From Shimia sp. R10_1 (GTDB lineage: Bacteria > Pseudomonadota > Alphaproteobacteria > Rhodobacterales > Rhodobacteraceae), in contig NZ_JAGHQX010000001.1 in the NCBI RefSeq assembly GCF_017744095.1, forward strand, positions 744,001-808,000: a stretch of DNA of 64,000 nt, written 5' to 3'. The notes beneath the pieces are model-generated. The model did no database searches. It was not told the DNA's origin and saw only the letters and a program-made list of their open reading frames with translations. Position numbers and translations under genes: made by a program. Within the stretch, counting starts at the first letter, position 1. Each line of letters opens with the position of its first letter. Below, piece after piece: positions 15,291-23,148 of this stretch.

Positions 15291-16307
15291 TTAAGAGCCC
15301 ACCGCAAGCGGGCCCTTTTGACGCAGTTCAGGCTTATACAGCGTGAATGTCGACCGCCCGTCGTGTTTGGAGGCATAAAGCGCAAGATCGGCGTCATCCA
15401 TCAATTGCTCAACAGTCGCCTCACCTTCACCTTTGTGAATGGAAATGCCGACACTGGCTGAAACCTGACACATCGTATCTTTGTAAGGCACCGGTGTTTC
15501 CACCTCTTTGATGATGCGCTGACAAATCCGGCCCAGCACCTCTTCGTCGATGGTGCCATTGATCACCAACACAAATTCATCGCCGCCCACACGTGCCACA
15601 ACATCTGCGTCCCGGCTGCTTTCCACCAGCACACGAGCCACGTGCTGCAAAACCACGTCCCCAGCGGCATGGCCTTTGGTGTCATTAACTTCTTTGAAGA
15701 AATCCAAATCGACATGCAAAAGCCCGAAAGGCTTACACTCTTCCACAAGACGCGGCAGGATCACGTCAAGGGCGCGACGGTTTTTCAAGCCGGTCAACGT
15801 GTCGGTGTAGGCCTGTTCTTCTGCTGCGACTTTGGCACCCTGCAGGCGTTGGTTCAGTTTTCGGCTGGCTTCCATGGCCGCAGATTTGGCTTCCACAAGA
15901 TAGAGCATCTCAATGGTCAAATCCGTCGCGGCAAAATCTGCTGCGTTCAAGGAATAATCGCGCACCGCATCCAAGATCGAGATCCCGAAACTCAAATTCA
16001 CAACCGCGCCACCTTGCCCGGCCGGCATCAACACGCCTTTCAGACCCGTTTCTGGCGCACTTCGTTTTTTGAGGCGCAGCTTCTGGCCCGCTGTTGCCAG
16101 CAAACAGTCCATCGACGTCACCGAATGCGGACGCATCAATTCAAACACTTCCAGAAAGCGCCCGCCGACAAGCTCCTGATCCGGAAAAATCTTGGCCAAC
16201 GTTGGCCCGGCATGGGAAATACGCCCCACATTGTCGAGCTGAACATGCATCGGGCACATCACGTCCAAAGCATCTGTCATGTCACAGACTTGATCGATCT
16301 CGCTCAC
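15291..16307 (-). CDS. HNOBA-domain diguanylate cyclase (H-NOX partner)
   Basis: Cytoplasmic protein of 338 residues. Residues about 15-130 match the heme-NO-binding-associated (HNOBA) domain (the GISILDAVRDYSLNAADFAATDLT segment is typical), residues 140-165 form a short coiled coil, and residues 168-330 are a GGDEF domain with an intact GGDEF signature at 241-245 and an RDAD product-inhibition site at 232-235. It should make cyclic di-GMP, with activity modulated by the H-NOX protein encoded just upstream; the genes overlap by 4 nt (ATGA). Both the catalytic and inhibitory sites are intact, so loss of function is unlikely. Confidence 0.9.
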   Translation of the reverse strand: MSEIDQVCDMTDALDVMCPMHVQLDNVGRISHAGPTLAKIFPDQELVGGRFLEVFELMRPHSVTSMDCLLATAGQKLRLKKRSAPETGLKGVLMPAGQGGAVVNLSFGISILDAVRDYSLNAADFAATDLTIEMLYLVEAKSAAMEASRKLNQRLQGAKVAAEEQAYTDTLTGLKNRRALDVILPRLVEECKPFGLLHVDLDFFKEVNDTKGHAAGDVVLQHVARVLVESSRDADVVARVGGDEFVLVINGTIDEEVLGRICQRIIKEVETPVPYKDTMCQVSASVGISIHKGEGEATVEQLMDDADLALYASKHDGRSTFTLYKPELRQKGPLAVGS

Positions 16308-16891
16308 TCGGCCCTCGCTCCCAACTCAAACTCTCGCCCACTTGCAAAGGCGTTCACAACCAAAGTGATGTCGATCACCTCGGTATCCCCATTTGTCCCT
16401 CTGTGTTCCAAAAACACAAGCGCCCCATAATCATCCGCCATGGTACGTAGGATGCCGATCAACACATGTCCAAAACCAGCCTGTGGATGGCGACAGGTCA
16501 GGCTAAAACGGTCAGGCGCATGTTCGCGCACTTCCATGCTCGGCAGGACCAGATCATCCACCGCCAATCTGGCGCGATCGGGCAATTCGTCCAAGGAATG
16601 CAGGAATTCAACAAAGTCCACCCCACCAAATCGCAACAGGCGCCGAAGCGCTTCCACATTTGGATGGGTCACAAGGTAGGTACCGATGTCTTCAAGCACG
16701 GTTTCCCAAGGGGCTCCGATCACGTCGGCAGCGGCTTTGATTAAATTTTCCGTCGCGCTGTCATCATAGTGCAGCATGGCTTCGAAATCGGTGGTTTCCA
16801 CACCGGCAAGACGAGTCACTTCGATCCAGCGCGGCTGCCCATAGCTGTCGCGGACAAAGCATTGAATCGCTCTGTTGATCAACCCGTGCAT
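16304..16891 (-). CDS. H-NOX family protein lacking the expected heme-ligand His
   Basis: Protein of 195 residues starting MHGLINRAIQCFV, the standard H-NOX opening; GGAGAGG precedes the ATG at 16891, and the frame to 17026 overlaps the preceding gene. Classical H-NOX proteins hold heme through a His in a segment like NLDxLH and a Tyr-x-Ser-x-Arg motif. Here the segment reads SLDELP, with Pro104 where His is expected, and the second motif reads SLTCR (130-134). The remaining fold landmarks (HPNVEALRRLLRFGG, GFGHVLIGILR) are present. It may bind heme through another residue such as His98, or act without heme. It overlaps the HNOBA-GGDEF gene and probably regulates it. Confidence 0.85.
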   Translation of the reverse strand: MHGLINRAIQCFVRDSYGQPRWIEVTRLAGVETTDFEAMLHYDDSATENLIKAAADVIGAPWETVLEDIGTYLVTHPNVEALRRLLRFGGVDFVEFLHSLDELPDRARLAVDDLVLPSMEVREHAPDRFSLTCRHPQAGFGHVLIGILRTMADDYGALVFLEHRGTNGDTEVIDITLVVNAFASGREFELGARAE

Positions 16892-16952
16892 GTATTCACC
16901 TCTCCTACCGTGCCCATAAGAGCAGACCGATGTTAAGATTTCCCCAACGCCC

Positions 16953-18704
16953 TCACAGGTCGGGCACAAGTTCCATGGCCCCAATCCAAAGCGAGCGGTG
17001 GCTGCTGGGCGCAACCTCATAGTCACCCGCCAGTATATCCCTCAGTTGCGCAACGGTCACCTGATCCCCATCTGAACCGATGGTTTTTGCACCTATAAAG
17101 AGCATTTCACCAAACTCACGCACGCTAAACACATCAACCTGCCGCGCATTCAAGGGCAAAAAGACAAAACCCATTCTTTCTTTTTGGGACGGAACGAAAT
17201 CGCCGAAAACCAAAACACAACCGGGATCTTGTGCTCGTTCACAAATATCGACCCAATCCTGAAGGCGATACAGTGGCATGTTGCGGAACGCCTGCGCGTC
17301 AATGCCTTCGCCCGCAGGAAGCATCGTCATCAGCTGTGCCAGTCTTTCCGCAGGCTCCAGGCGCGCGCGCCCATGCAATTGTCTTGCGATATCCAGATGT
17401 TCCTCCGGATTTTGCACCGCCGCGATCGCTTCTTGCCATGCGGGGTTATCTGTCGCAAAATCCGCGCTCAACGCGGCCAGCCCGGCACGCCCAGCATGCC
17501 CCCATTCCGTGTGCATTTCCCACAGCGCGGCATCCTCTGGCGCAACAGCACCCGAAAGAATACGCGCAGTCTGCGACTGGGTCGAAATACGCTCCGCCTG
17601 CAGCACCGGAGTCTGCCAAAGCGCCAACAAAATGAGCATGCCAACGGCGATCTTGATATTGGCTTGACGAATGCGCCCCATCCAATCGCCGCGCAGCAAA
17701 ACAGAGGTCGCATAGCAAACCGCATGTGTCCCCACGACCAGCACCATACAGGCCGTCGCCAAGCGCGCAGGCGTCCAGCCATACTGCCCAACCCGCACCC
17801 ACAGCGCAAAGGCCGCCAAACCGGTCAACACAGGCAACAAAAGCGCCAAAGCAGCCGTTGCCGCCCGCATCCAGACATTCTGCACCGCATCCAGATCACT
17901 GCGATCCAACGCAACGCTGATCAAGGTGATCATGCCAACCGCCACCCCCAAGAGCGTGGTCGCCTGGCTCAGATTGCCAAACATTTCCCCCGGAGCCTGC
18001 AAGATCGTAGCACCGACAAAGATCAGCACCACCCCCAATATCACGGGCACCAAAAGCCGCAGCAGGCGCATGATCAGGAAGGGCGAAATGTAGTCGCGCA
18101 GCTCATGTACAACTGAAAGGCCAAGCCCCAAGCCAACGCCCGATACCACAAATGCGGCCCCCTCAACGTCAAGAAGATCCGCAATCAGGGTAAGACCAAC
18201 AATTTGCAACAGCGCATCACTCAGAAACACAACCGCCCAGATCAAAGCCACAAACAGCCACGCTGCCGAGTAGCGCACCAATATGCCCCAACTCACATCA
18301 AAGAGATGGCCATAGTCCCGCAGGCTGTGACGGTCGCGAAGCGTGGCCCCAACAAACGGCGTTCCAATCATCAGAAAAAGCGCCCAAGCCACAATTGGGT
18401 GCTGGGCAGCGGCAAATGCCTCAAGCGTGTCAAACCGCAGACCGCACCATGTCAGCAACGCCGCGGCCACAGCTGACAGCCCAAGCGCCGGCAACGCTGC
18501 ACGCCCGATGCGATGTGGTCCGCTCAATCCAAGCAAAACAGCAAAAAAACCAGAGACAAATCCAGTCAGCACCAAATAGGCCAGCGGATGGCTGACAACC
18601 TCATGCGCTTTTTCGATCAACGCCCAGACGGACACACCGGCCAAACCGCCAACAATCGCCATCTCTGCACGCCCCGCAGCCGCGTAGCTTTCCTGCGTGT
18701 GCAT
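16953..18704 (-). CDS. DUF4153 integral membrane protein
   Basis: Protein of 583 residues with about 11 hydrophobic segments in residues 15-370 and a soluble C-terminal domain of about 200 residues. The layout and the RDYGHLFDVSWG and DLDAVQNVWMR segments match the DUF4153 family, whose function is unknown. GGAGG sits 5 nt ahead of the ATG at 18704. It lies 61 nt upstream of the H-NOX gene on the same strand and may be co-transcribed. No catalytic motif was recognised. Confidence 0.75.
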   Translation of the reverse strand: MHTQESYAAAGRAEMAIVGGLAGVSVWALIEKAHEVVSHPLAYLVLTGFVSGFFAVLLGLSGPHRIGRAALPALGLSAVAAALLTWCGLRFDTLEAFAAAQHPIVAWALFLMIGTPFVGATLRDRHSLRDYGHLFDVSWGILVRYSAAWLFVALIWAVVFLSDALLQIVGLTLIADLLDVEGAAFVVSGVGLGLGLSVVHELRDYISPFLIMRLLRLLVPVILGVVLIFVGATILQAPGEMFGNLSQATTLLGVAVGMITLISVALDRSDLDAVQNVWMRAATAALALLLPVLTGLAAFALWVRVGQYGWTPARLATACMVLVVGTHAVCYATSVLLRGDWMGRIRQANIKIAVGMLILLALWQTPVLQAERISTQSQTARILSGAVAPEDAALWEMHTEWGHAGRAGLAALSADFATDNPAWQEAIAAVQNPEEHLDIARQLHGRARLEPAERLAQLMTMLPAGEGIDAQAFRNMPLYRLQDWVDICERAQDPGCVLVFGDFVPSQKERMGFVFLPLNARQVDVFSVREFGEMLFIGAKTIGSDGDQVTVAQLRDILAGDYEVAPSSHRSLWIGAMELVPDL

Positions 18705-18820
18705 GCTCACCTCCAGTATCACTTATGGTGTTTTCTATAGCCGGTTGGTGATAAAAAACAATGTCTTGAAACCGTGACCTTGAACTGACCGCAAGATGCG
18801 CAAAACTTCGCCCACACTGC

Positions 18821-20383
18821 TCAGAAATCGGTTGGTGCGCCGCCTTCTTCTTTGCGCCGCGCCACAAAGGCCGCCAGCTCTTCGTGGATGGCGGGGTCCA
18901 TCGGCGGCGCCTCATATTGAACAAGGGCCTCTTTGGCAATGTGATGGGCACGCTCAGCAGTCCAGACACCGCCTGCGGCCTCAAAAGCCTCAAAGTTGCG
19001 CCAGTCAGATGCAATGGGCTGATAGAACGCTGTCGTATAGCGATCTTGTGTGTGATCGATCCCAAAAAAGTGTCCGTCCGAGCCCACCGATCGAATGGCA
19101 TCAAGCGCGATTTCGTCATCCCCAGTTGCCCAGACCTCCGGCTCCAAATAGCGCTGGATCATCTGGATCACCTCGCAATCCATGACAAATTTCTCCGGAC
19201 TTGCGATCAGCCCTCCCTCAAGCCAGCCCGCGCCGTGATACACCATATTCGTGCCGGACTGCACAGCACTCCACAAACTGTTGGAGGTCTCCCACATGGC
19301 TTGGCCATCTGGCACATTCGCCGCGCAGACCCCGCTCGCGCGCATCGGCAGCCCATAAAATCGCGCCATTTGCCCCGTCATTTGTGTCGCACGCATATAT
19401 TCCGGTGTCCCAAAGGCAGGGGCTCCAGACTTCATATCAACATTCGAGGTAAACGTGCCAATCGCACAGGCAACACCGGGACGGATATATTGTGCGAGTG
19501 CCACAGCGCTTAGGGCCTCAGCCAACGACTGCGCCACCGCGCCGGCCAGTGTCACCGGGGCCATGGCCCCTGCAAGCGTGAACGGCGTCACCACCAGCGC
19601 CTGATTGCGCCGCGCCAGCCGCATCCAGCCATCAATCATCGGTTCATCATGTTTAAGCGGCGAAGTGGAATTGATATTGGTAAAGATATGCGGTCGCGCG
19701 TCGAAAGCTTCTTCAGACAGCCCCGCCGCGATTCGCACCATTTCCATCGCGTCTTCCACACGCTCTTTACCCAACGAATAGGTGTGCACAACCTTATCTG
19801 TCAGGGTCAGCGTGTCATACAGGACATCCAGATGGCGAATGGAAGCGTGAATGTCCTGCGGCTCAACAGGGTAGCCGCCAATGAAGTGGATACAGTTGAA
19901 AAACTGCGACAGCCGCAGAAGGTCTGCACATTGCGCACGCGTGCCCGGAACCTTCCGCCCCAGTGCCAGATCCCAATAATTTGGCGGGCTGGAAACATTG
20001 CCAAACAGAATATGGCCCTTCCCCATGGTCAACTGGCGGTCCGGGTTGCGCGGGGTCAAGGTCCAGCTTGAAGGCGCTTTGCTGACCATCTCCATGACAA
20101 ACGTGCGATCCATAAAGATGCGATCTTCAACCACACGACAGCCCGCTTCTTTCAAGATCTTGCGCGCCTCGGCGTGAAAGAACTGAATGCCAATCTCTTC
20201 CAGAATGCGCATCGCACCATCATGCAGCCGCGCAACACTCTCCTCGGTCAATGGCTCTGTCGGTCTGTCGGTGTTCACAGGCAACCGCCACGACATCTGC
20301 TCCAGCCCCAATGTGCGCCCTCTGCGGGCTGCGCGGCCTCCACTCCGTTTGGCTCTCCGGGAAGTTTCTGATGACACTGACAT
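18821..20383 (-). CDS. trimethylamine methyltransferase (MttB) family protein, non-pyrrolysine type
   Basis: Protein of 520 residues of the MttB/COG5598 family. Conserved stretches are HDGAMRILEEIGI, GNVSSPPNYWD and the C-terminal EPEVWATGDDEIALDAIRSVG. There is no in-frame amber codon, so it is a non-pyrrolysine member; characterised relatives demethylate glycine betaine or other quaternary amines onto a corrinoid protein. The first 30 residues are Arg-rich and of low complexity. No corrinoid protein or reactivase gene is adjacent, so partners must be elsewhere. The gene stands alone between unrelated genes. Confidence 0.88.
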   Translation of the reverse strand: MSVSSETSRRAKRSGGRAARRGRTLGLEQMSWRLPVNTDRPTEPLTEESVARLHDGAMRILEEIGIQFFHAEARKILKEAGCRVVEDRIFMDRTFVMEMVSKAPSSWTLTPRNPDRQLTMGKGHILFGNVSSPPNYWDLALGRKVPGTRAQCADLLRLSQFFNCIHFIGGYPVEPQDIHASIRHLDVLYDTLTLTDKVVHTYSLGKERVEDAMEMVRIAAGLSEEAFDARPHIFTNINSTSPLKHDEPMIDGWMRLARRNQALVVTPFTLAGAMAPVTLAGAVAQSLAEALSAVALAQYIRPGVACAIGTFTSNVDMKSGAPAFGTPEYMRATQMTGQMARFYGLPMRASGVCAANVPDGQAMWETSNSLWSAVQSGTNMVYHGAGWLEGGLIASPEKFVMDCEVIQMIQRYLEPEVWATGDDEIALDAIRSVGSDGHFFGIDHTQDRYTTAFYQPIASDWRNFEAFEAAGGVWTAERAHHIAKEALVQYEAPPMDPAIHEELAAFVARRKEEGGAPTDF

Positions 20384-20506
20384 GACGCCCCTCCTCGCTG
20401 TCTCACCAGAAAACGCCTCCTTCCAGCATCATACTGCGCATTTTCGACATAATACGTCGCTTTTAGCACGTAACTTCCATGCTCAGGCTGGTTTTAGCGC
20501 ATAAAA

Positions 20507-20537
20507 ATACCCCCGAGCGCAAACGGCACGGGGGTAT
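20507..20537 (-). terminator. Rho-independent terminator of the HAD gene
   Basis: On the minus strand a 9-bp stem ATACCCCCG/CGGGGGTAT encloses a 13-nt loop and runs directly into a T-rich stretch (TTTTTAT). It lies just after the stop of the HAD phosphatase gene (20570) and before mttB. Confidence 0.85.
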
Positions 20538-20569
20538 CAGACGGAGTAATCCGATGGTCCCGGCTGAGA

Positions 20570-21259
20570 TCAGCCGCGCAACCACTCCGGCAAATGACCA
20601 ATATTGGGCAGCACGACATCCGCCAAAGGTGCAAGCTCAGCTTCCCCTGCAACCCCCGTCAAAACCGCGACCGTCTGCATGCCTGCCCGGCGCCCGGCCA
20701 GCAAATCATGGCTGCTGTCTCCCACCATCGCGATACGCGCCGGATCAAGAGAGACATGTTGCGCAAACGCCAAAAGCGGATCCGGATCAGGCTTGGCGCC
20801 AAAGCCACTGTCAAACCCCGCAATGAAGTGAAACCGGTCCACAACCCCGGCCTCTTGCAAATGGGCCCGCGCGCCATATTCCGTGTCGTTCGTCATCACG
20901 CCGATTTTGAGCCCCTGCGCGATAAATCCATCCATCAAAGGCGCCAGAGGCACCGCCGGTGCCAACGAGGCTTCCGCCGCCGCCAGCATCAAGGTGCGTT
21001 CAATCGCATCCACATCGCTCTGCGGCACAACGCTGGCGACGGCCTCAGCCGCCTCGCGATTGGTGCCCGCAATCACAAAGCTCTCTGGTAGAAAAACACC
21101 AGCGCTCAGATCAAACTGCAAGGCCTCCGCAATGCGCGCGGCCAGACCATCGTCTCCTTCGGCAAACCCCGTGATCATTTGCGCAGCCCACCCGTTCCAG
21201 GTTGCGCCAAAATCAAACAGCGTGCCGTCTTTATCAAACAATAGCCCGTCTACCCGCAT
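20570..21259 (-). CDS. HAD family hydrolase (phosphoglycolate phosphatase-like)
   Basis: HAD-superfamily phosphatase of 229 residues. Motif I DKDGTLFDF is at residues 8-16, motif II is MTNDTEYG, and motif III/IV is GAKPDPDPLLAFA followed by MVGDSSHDLLAGRRAGM. A cap domain lies between motifs I and II, as in Gph-type enzymes. The ATG at 21259 is preceded by AAAGG; an ATG one codon upstream is equally possible. It probably dephosphorylates a small phosphomonoester; the substrate cannot be told from sequence. Confidence 0.85.
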   Translation of the reverse strand: MRVDGLLFDKDGTLFDFGATWNGWAAQMITGFAEGDDGLAARIAEALQFDLSAGVFLPESFVIAGTNREAAEAVASVVPQSDVDAIERTLMLAAAEASLAPAVPLAPLMDGFIAQGLKIGVMTNDTEYGARAHLQEAGVVDRFHFIAGFDSGFGAKPDPDPLLAFAQHVSLDPARIAMVGDSSHDLLAGRRAGMQTVAVLTGVAGEAELAPLADVVLPNIGHLPEWLRG

Positions 21260-21349
21260 CATCTCGCCTTTGCTGAAGTCATTGGGGCCCGCCCCATGTC
21301 GCACGCACCCTGCCCCGCCGGCCACAAGCGTGCAAGGAAAACAAAACAC

Positions 21350-21634: not shown

Positions 21635-21717
21635 TTGCCCAGACTTTCGAAAGGGTTTGTTAACCAATGATAAGCCATTATGAACGCGTCCCGTTTCCAC
21701 AGTTTTCAGGTTTTCTT

Positions 21718-23148
21718 ATGGCAGCTCGTGTCTTGATCGTCGACAGTATCTCGGCGAACCGTATCTTGTTGAAAGTCAAACTGACTGGCGCCTTTGCTCA
21801 TGTTGAGCAATCCGCCAGCGCAGGGGAAGCTTTGGATCTGCTTCACGCAGAAACACCAGACCTATTGGTACTGGGCGGAGATCTTGTAGACATGTCTGCG
21901 CTGAAGCTATGCAAGCTGGTGAAAGAAGACCCAGCCTTTGCCCATCTTCCAATCTTGATCGCAAATACAGAAGGCACGCGCACGGATCGCATTGAGGCGC
22001 TCAGAGCCGGGGCGGATGACGCATTTGATATGTCCGTCAGCACGGATGCCCTGCTTGCGCGCATTCGCAGCATCATCCGCGCGCGCAGCTCTTACGAAGA
22101 ATTGCGCCTGCGCGAGCAGACAAGTCAGATTCCCGGGCTGGCGGAGTCCTTTGCTGGTTTTGACGGCCCCGCACAGGTTTTGCTTGCGTCCTGGAACGCT
22201 GCCGAAGGGCTGTTGTGGAGTGCGCAACTGCAACACGAAGTGCCATACGGTGTGCGCCATCAGCCAGTGGCTCAAATCATGCAGAACATGTCACTCTTTG
22301 CGCCTCCGGACGCAATCGTCATCTCATTACGCACCGCCACGCCAGACGAGTCACTGCGCCTGTTGGCAGAAGTGCGGGCGCGGGCCGCAACACGGCAGGC
22401 GGCCGTTTTGGTTGTGCTGGATGCAGAGGACGATGCGGCACGGATCAACGCGCTTGATCTCGGCGCCAATGACGTTCTGATTGATGGTTTTGACGCAGAA
22501 GAGGCCAGCCTGCGCCTGGCCGCAATGATTGCGCGCAAACGTCTGACCGATCGTCTGCGCAAGCGCGTGGAAGACGGGTTGACCGCAGCAGTAACCGACC
22601 CGCTCACCGGCCTGTTCAATCGCCGCTATGCGATGCCGCACCTGAACAAACTCGCTCAGCGTGCGCACACTCAAAGAGGCGATTTTGCGGTGATGCTGGC
22701 CGATCTCGATCACTTCAAGGACGTCAATGACCGGTTTGGTCATGCAGCGGGCGACATCGTGCTGGCTGAAATTGCCCGCCGGATGCGCCGTTGCCTGTCA
22801 CAAGCGGATTTGATTGCGCGCATGGGCGGCGAAGAGTTCATGATCGTTGTCCCTGTAGAGGATGTGGCCGCAGCAGAGCAAATCGCCCAACGTCTGTGTG
22901 ATGTGGTGCGCTCTGAGCCCGTCTACCTGCGCGGCAGAGATATCCAAATTCCGGTCACCGTCAGCATTGGCGTGGCTCTCGGCAGTGATCTGATCAAGGC
23001 CTCCAGTGATGCGGCGCCCACGTCACACCTACGCGTTGCCGCAAATGATGGCATCGCCTCCGCACTGATCGATCGCGCCGATCAGGCCCTCTATGGCGCC
23101 AAAGCTGAAGGACGTGACAAAGTCACTCTCAGCTGCCCCGCAGCTTGA
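21718..23148 (+). CDS. pleD: PleD-like diguanylate cyclase with degenerate receiver domains
   Basis: Protein of 476 residues with the PleD order REC-REC-GGDEF. The first receiver (1-125) aligns closely with Caulobacter PleD but has Ser10 in place of the second acidic residue, Gly53 in place of the phospho-acceptor Asp and Met105 where the conserved Lys lies; the second receiver (about 150-290) also lacks an acceptor. The GGDEF domain (300-470) keeps an intact GGEEF at 370-374, but the inhibitory RxxD site reads SQAD. It should make cyclic di-GMP without control by phosphorylation. The start is the ATG at 21718 (MAARVLIVD). Divergent from DUF3572. Confidence 0.88.
   Translation: MAARVLIVDSISANRILLKVKLTGAFAHVEQSASAGEALDLLHAETPDLLVLGGDLVDMSALKLCKLVKEDPAFAHLPILIANTEGTRTDRIEALRAGADDAFDMSVSTDALLARIRSIIRARSSYEELRLREQTSQIPGLAESFAGFDGPAQVLLASWNAAEGLLWSAQLQHEVPYGVRHQPVAQIMQNMSLFAPPDAIVISLRTATPDESLRLLAEVRARAATRQAAVLVVLDAEDDAARINALDLGANDVLIDGFDAEEASLRLAAMIARKRLTDRLRKRVEDGLTAAVTDPLTGLFNRRYAMPHLNKLAQRAHTQRGDFAVMLADLDHFKDVNDRFGHAAGDIVLAEIARRMRRCLSQADLIARMGGEEFMIVVPVEDVAAAEQIAQRLCDVVRSEPVYLRGRDIQIPVTVSIGVALGSDLIKASSDAAPTSHLRVAANDGIASALIDRADQALYGAKAEGRDKVTLSCPAA

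Follow-up and report, generated by a model that had tools for sequence, protein, structure and literature searches.

What does an H-NOX protein regulate, and in response to what, when the residue that should hold its heme iron is a proline? The question is raised by a gene on the minus strand at 16304..16891 of the window, by which we mean the whole 64,000-nucleotide stretch of Shimia sp. R10_1 analyzed here, taken from an assembly of 4.37 Mb. The initial annotation had the coordinates and frame of this gene right. The encoded protein of 195 amino acids matches the Pfam profile HNOB (PF07700) over residues 2-157 with 88.4 bits, well above the curated cut-off of 25.5, and is accordingly an H-NOX family member by its sequence profile; a search of NCBIfam returned no family for it. 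The AF2 model (pLDDT 88.2, pTM 0.83) has the Nostoc H-NOX structure 2o09 as its top Foldseek match (E 2.2e-14, TM 0.81), so that the predicted structure adopts the H-NOX fold. The closest named relatives are from Shimia, with 85-86% identity across the H-NOX, and comparison with close relatives gave dN/dS values of 0.047-0.118, obtained from the 10 of 11 pairs that could be used and only rough, as dS was close to saturation.

The alphaF region aligns without gaps to that of Nostoc H-NOX Alr2278 (EFLHSLDELPDRARL in the window protein, EFMENLDNLHARVGL in Alr2278), which puts Pro104, read from the codon CCC at 16580..16582 (minus strand), exactly at the proximal ligand His105 of the Nostoc protein. 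The proline that had been proposed at the heme-ligand position is thus borne out, and helix 93-110 runs continuously through it in the AF2 model.

To place this substitution in a lineage, we collected H-NOX sequences across the family Rhodobacteraceae, where 296 of 394 genomes contain an HNOB match, and from a class-wide draw of 385 genomes, where 18 do, 13 of them outside the family. Proteins were obtained from 202 of 204 loci (the exceptions being L118, of only 20 bases, and L203, a Pfam match that our own profile missed), and removal of duplicates left 194 unique sequences. A clade of 148, including the window protein, comprises sequences at least 40% identical to it (SH-aLRT 99); none of the other 46 exceeds 31% identity. 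Aligned at the proximal position, the clade has Pro in 121 members, His in 10 and another residue in 17 (Lys 3, Ala 3, Asn 2, Arg 2, Gly 2, Gln 2, Ser 1, Tyr 1, Glu 1), compared with 45 His and a single Gln among the 46 others. The proportions vary with sampling: the 79 clade loci chosen as nearest relatives have Pro in 71, His in 1 and other residues in 7, and the 68 loci chosen nearly all as one per genus have Pro in 49, His in 9 and other residues in 10, the latter set being the fairer estimate, although drawn from the matches listed, with high and low scorers picked by hand. Because 29 of the 30 loci from a set of 60 lower-scoring matching genomes also belong to the Pro-rich clade, it probably represents the kind of H-NOX met most often in the Rhodobacteraceae, a major marine family. 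A register shift that would bring a histidine back to the proximal site was considered and rejected, given the ungapped alignment to Alr2278 and the finding that only one of the 121 Pro104 sequences has a further His anywhere in columns 99-103 or 105-111.

The lineage-wide variant suggested in the initial annotation is therefore real, and it has been published as H-NOX group 5 in a 2022 review (PMC8738867), according to which fewer than 10% of members have the His, most have Pro at the ligand position as in the window clade, and the signal is an open question. The proline substitution and the rarity of histidine are thus already in print, as is the loss of the His in PMC5588039, where the axial His is recorded as missing from the H-NOX of Paracoccus denitrificans and R. 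sphaeroides. Group 5 was built from P. denitrificans H-NOX Pden_3719, encoded beside DgcA (PMC8738867). By sequence, the window protein belongs with it, having 37.9% identity over 97% to P. denitrificans H-NOX, Pro at the ligand site and an adjacent GGDEF gene, the last feature being modeled on P. denitrificans, since the available text of PMC8738867 ties no neighbor to group 5 by name. This assignment is one of identity and residue match, made outside our tree and the published network. The P. denitrificans sequence that we used, from strain HAMBI_2443 and not the strain used for genetics, reads FVESLRELPGR, that is, Pro104 and Glu98, and its gene overlaps a GGDEF gene, an overlap also described in PMC5588039. 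Group 5 is described as having no conserved Cys (PMC8738867), whereas Cys133 is common in the window clade, if not fixed (92/148).

Loss of the heme-binding features extends beyond the proximal residue. The YxSxR motif is missing from the window protein, as had been claimed, but the string SLTCR initially named as its equivalent is out of register by three residues; by alignment and column counts, the true counterpart lies downstream, at C133-R-H135-P-Q137 (16481..16495, minus strand, counted from the start codon). None of the 148 clade members has a Tyr at the position of the motif's Tyr, in contrast to the other 46 H-NOX, which have the Tyr in 46, the Ser in 45 and the Arg in 44. In Nostoc and human H-NOX, the residues named as contacting the propionates are Y2, R116 and the Y-S-R residues (PMC6225106); the window protein has H2, V115, C133, H135 and Q137 at these places, so that all five are changed. 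Other parts of the architecture are retained. The hinge glycines G70 and G146 and Pro117 are invariant in all 148 clade members and in the 46 others, and the clade conserves hydrophobic residues at L100 and L103 (96-97%) and F96 (99%). By sequence, the window protein thus keeps the hinge glycines and proximal Pro of a canonical heme H-NOX and lacks its proximal His and YxSxR.

The clade also shares a basic stretch at residues 83-87 (R83 R84 L85 L86 R87 in the window protein), with R83 and R87 present in 148/148 and R84 in 147/148; of the 46 H-NOX outside the clade, 83% have a gap at positions 83-85 and 74% a Phe at position 87. This stretch is a possible partner-binding surface.

Could another residue have taken over as ligand? 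The initial annotation pointed to His98, six residues before Pro104 (16598..16600, minus strand, counted from the start codon), and this candidate is rejected, as its presence does not track the loss of His104: it occurs in 8 of the 10 His104 members, in 90 of the 121 with Pro104 and in 6 of the 17 others, and P. denitrificans, with Pro104, has Glu98. Column counts comparing Pro and His members revealed no His, Cys, Met or Tyr common in the clade (at least 30%) that replaces His104. His2 (111 of the 121 Pro members, 9/10 His members, 16/17 others), Cys133 (77/121, 6/10 and 9/17), His76, His98, Met151 and Tyr155 all occur at similar frequencies whether position 104 is Pro or His; the largest difference is at Met144 (58/121 Pro, 2/10 His), which is Leu in the window protein. 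Trp135, at the position of the YxSxR Ser, occurs in 6 of the 10 His104 members and 5 of the 121 with Pro104. Of 830 tests that paired a column with a residue, this association came out best (uncorrected p 1.3e-5), and shared ancestry may account for it, as an independent-pairs test found only 2 supported pairs.

Immediately downstream, on the same strand, lies a diguanylate cyclase gene (15291..16307), the GTG start of which overlaps the H-NOX stop by 4 nt. The initial annotation described this partner as an intact HNOBA-diguanylate cyclase fused by overlap to the H-NOX; the overlap and the intact GGDEF domain (RVGGDEF; 140.8 bits) were confirmed, and the HNOBA match proved partial, covering only profile positions 6-59 of 216 with 35.2 bits. 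The AF2 model of the cyclase (pLDDT 92.1, pTM 0.64) contains PAS-like strands, so called from our reading of their order in the model, a single 40-residue signaling helix (127-166) and the GGDEF domain. The predicted order of domains, H-NOX, PAS, coil and cyclase, would be that of soluble guanylate cyclase (sGC), divided between two genes. A GGDEF gene lies directly downstream of the H-NOX in all 147 clade loci with readable DNA (in 145 within the ORF chosen by our script and in L147 and L166 in another frame, with L111 ending at the contig end), and the 4-nt overlap recurs in 102 of the 147. The partnership is therefore unaltered by whether position 104 is His or Pro.

The surrounding genes also have recognizable counterparts. 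On the other side of the H-NOX gene is a co-located gene for a DUF4153 membrane protein (16953..18722, minus strand; 32.2 bits against a cut-off of 27), and the Dinoroseobacter shibae ORF in the same place scores 25.2 bits, just below that cut-off. The order of cyclase, H-NOX, DUF4153-like protein, MTTB-like methyltransferase and HAD hydrolase, spanning 15291-21349 in the window, recurs in D. shibae, and a Phaeobacter plasmid has the same cyclase, H-NOX, MTTB-like and HAD order with no annotated gene in the DUF4153 place. A further cyclase gene, with receiver and GGDEF domains, is found at 21667-23148 (plus strand), about 5 kb from the H-NOX gene. Two cyclases have been reported in D. shibae (PMC6473078), to which the two in the window possibly correspond.

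The same genome carries a second H-NOX of a different kind (locus L001:1435-2097, minus strand, on contig C1), identified by an HNOB match at C1:12304-12780 with 130.8 bits. Its sequence reads DEVHVEV and YDSER, and it therefore retains both the proximal His and YxSxR. The last 4 nt of its gene are shared with the start of an ORF for a hybrid histidine kinase with HisKA, HATPase and receiver domains, and an ORF for an FMN-dependent dehydrogenase is divergent at this locus. The organism thus also possesses a canonical candidate for NO sensing. Most of the matching genomes in the family have a single HNOB match, as two or more were found in only 35 of the 296 (in one of these, G036, a single gene seems to have been split in two).

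Several characterized proteins bear on what the window protein might do. One is the D. shibae pair of H-NOX (Dshi_2815) and Dgc1, which belongs to the same clade, has the same gene order, with a neighbor matching GGDEF and HNOBA, and also lacks YxSxR. Its H-NOX reads GLDDLHDRARL, giving His104 and Asp98 in contrast to Pro104 and His98 in the window protein; the genome read was taken as that of D. shibae because the first 3,000 bases of one of its contigs are identical to plasmid NC_009955 of strain DFL 12. A review lists this H-NOX as an NO sensor that contains heme and inhibits Dgc1 (PMC8846402), and PMC7232146 gives its locus tag and the NO-dependent inhibition of the cyclase. Loss of YxSxR alone therefore does not abolish heme binding in this clade. 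In P. denitrificans, hnoX mutants underproduce biofilm and a mutant lacking both cyclases overproduces it (PMC5588039). A His-less H-NOX is thus active in vivo, in an organism where NO can act without H-NOX; the authors of that work still model the P. denitrificans protein as NO-responsive, with an H-NOX-dependent NO branch.

Nostoc Alr2278 and the sGC beta1 H-NOX share the fold and are the best PDB matches by sequence and structure, but unlike the window protein, both have His105 and YxSxR. A heme-free parallel is the pseudo-H-NOX domain of sGC alpha, which sits beside a PAS-coil-cyclase arrangement (PMC8196705) like that of the window pair. In sGC alpha, an N-terminal extension fills the pocket (PMC8196705), whereas the window clade mostly has no room for one, with at most 15 open codons before the MxG start in 96 of 147 relatives and at most 30 in 124 of 147. 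The window frame has 45 such codons, from a GTG at 17026 that might be used. On this reading of the frames, the window protein does not appear to have a pocket-occluding extension of the sGC alpha type.

Taken together, we consider it somewhat better than an even bet that the window protein is a group-5 H-NOX that has no alphaF-ligated NO-sensing heme and acts as the regulatory subunit dedicated to the PAS-GGDEF diguanylate cyclase whose gene overlaps its own. What our own analysis contributes to this reading is the sequence, the clade, the operon, purifying selection and the predicted fold. Canonical H-NOX proteins respond to NO with cleavage of the Fe-His bond, a shift of alphaF and rotation of the two subdomains around the glycine hinges (PMC7108781, PMC8196705). 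The window protein keeps the predicted fold, the hinges, the proximal Pro and the hydrophobic core and has lost the alphaF His and the residues at the five propionate contacts; with these gone, NO sensing through a broken iron-His bond is most likely absent. Since canonical activation consists in loss of that bond, a Pro-type protein would by default be in or near the 'His-off' output state, in which it would restrain its cyclase. The sGC beta variant H105C without heme likewise resembles activated sGC (PMC8196705). The inhibitory direction and the interaction with the partner are borrowed from papers on relatives, one of which has the His. A protein simply locked on would not explain why the sensor fold has been kept, so its strong conservation makes some regulated input likely. 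The switch could lie in a ligand other than heme bound in the cavity that has been kept, in a heme held only loosely or in the amount of H-NOX itself, and a signal other than NO is a real possibility.

One specific form of this reading, in which a different small molecule or cofactor occupies the cavity of the Pro-type protein and its presence is relayed to the cyclase, strikes us as plausible yet short of an even chance, its odds overlapping with those of the broader explanation of which it is the narrower case. It draws on the contrast between a fold, hinges and hydrophobic core held under purifying selection and the loss of the heme anchors, and on the mostly polar residues that occupy position 104 when Pro is absent (H10 K3 N2 R2 Q2 E1 S1 Y1, against A3 G2), although neither a candidate ligand nor a newly conserved motif for binding one was identified. 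Rather less probable, in our judgment, is that the window protein is still a heme-based sensor of NO or another gas, with heme in the conserved cavity held by a different axial ligand or by water only, and NO altering the cyclase as in D. shibae. The conserved core residues, the heme-binding listing of the D. shibae protein despite its lack of YxSxR (PMC8846402) and the presence in 136 of the 148 clade members of His2, at a position that touches a propionate in Nostoc and human H-NOX (PMC6225106), would all suit such a sensor. They have to be set against the changes at all five named propionate contacts, the Glu at position 98 of P. denitrificans and the failure of any common His, Cys, Met or Tyr to replace His104, Met144, with the widest gap, being Leu in the window protein itself.

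The two remaining alternatives are much weaker. Thiol-based redox sensing has a precedent in the heme-free H-NOX of V. cholerae, which responds to oxidants in vitro (PMC7108781), and Cys133 is widespread in the clade. The window protein, however, contains only two cysteines, C11 and C133, the former found in 66 of the 148 members, and so lacks the three-Cys zinc motif of the zinc/redox H-NOX (groups 2-4); we regard this mechanism as quite improbable. A decaying, pseudogene-like H-NOX or an artifact of sequencing or annotation might be suspected from the loss of both textbook heme motifs, but is refuted by the comparative data, namely the open frame, Pro in 121 of 148 members, the low dN/dS and the operon kept across the clade, and we give it almost no credence.

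How the two states of position 104 arose was addressed with trees built after removal of that column (the cyclase being left blank for L147, L166 and L111 in the combined tree). The His members are scattered: the H-NOX tree requires no fewer than 8 switches between His and any other residue, and the tree of H-NOX plus cyclase requires 6. Forcing the ten His sequences into one clade costs 46 lnL with H-NOX alone, where a single clade is not rejected (p-AU 0.153), and 145 lnL with H-NOX plus cyclase, where it is marginally rejected (p-AU 0.034). On the combined tree rooted on L161, the -lnL is 59.8 for a Pro root with free rates, 71.5 for a His root with free rates and 81.9 for a His root without regain, and an equal-rates model on the H-NOX tree places Pro at the clade root with 0.98, each of these models using one tree and one root, from one short gene and its partner, with weak backbone support. 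Histidine is also over-represented: it accounts for 10 of the 27 residues other than Pro, against the 6.5% expected if the Pro codons present had mutated by single steps. The excess has a binomial probability of 4e-6 counted by sequences, which are related and not independent, and of 3e-4 counted by parsimony changes (6 of 16), under a codon null that takes no account of what else the site can tolerate. Such over-representation fits selection for His once Pro is left. Scattered as well as over-represented, the His members fit repeated re-acquisition of His without proving it, and repeated loss of an ancestral His is a formal possibility. We tentatively entertain, at less than even odds, a history in which the clade ancestor exchanged His for Pro, lost YxSxR and kept the H-NOX cavity for another signal, with His and heme-based NO sensing regained on several occasions, one of them in the lineage leading to D. 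shibae H-NOX. Within the mostly open-access literature searched, we found no mention of the scatter of the His minority, of the place of D. shibae in it or of the biochemistry of a Pro member.

Papers on the relatives treat these H-NOX as NO sensors, and the c-di-GMP branch concerned has been linked to biofilm in P. denitrificans (PMC5588039) and, in R. capsulatus, to motility and gene transfer agents (PMC7232146). Should Pro-type proteins do without the usual heme binding, the view of NO as the input to this branch would be open to question for most of them. D. shibae, with His, and P. denitrificans and the window organism, with Pro, offer a matched comparison with the same partner. Should the proposed history of loss and regain be true, the family would amount to a natural series of cyclase regulators, each set to respond to NO or to another input by a single residue.
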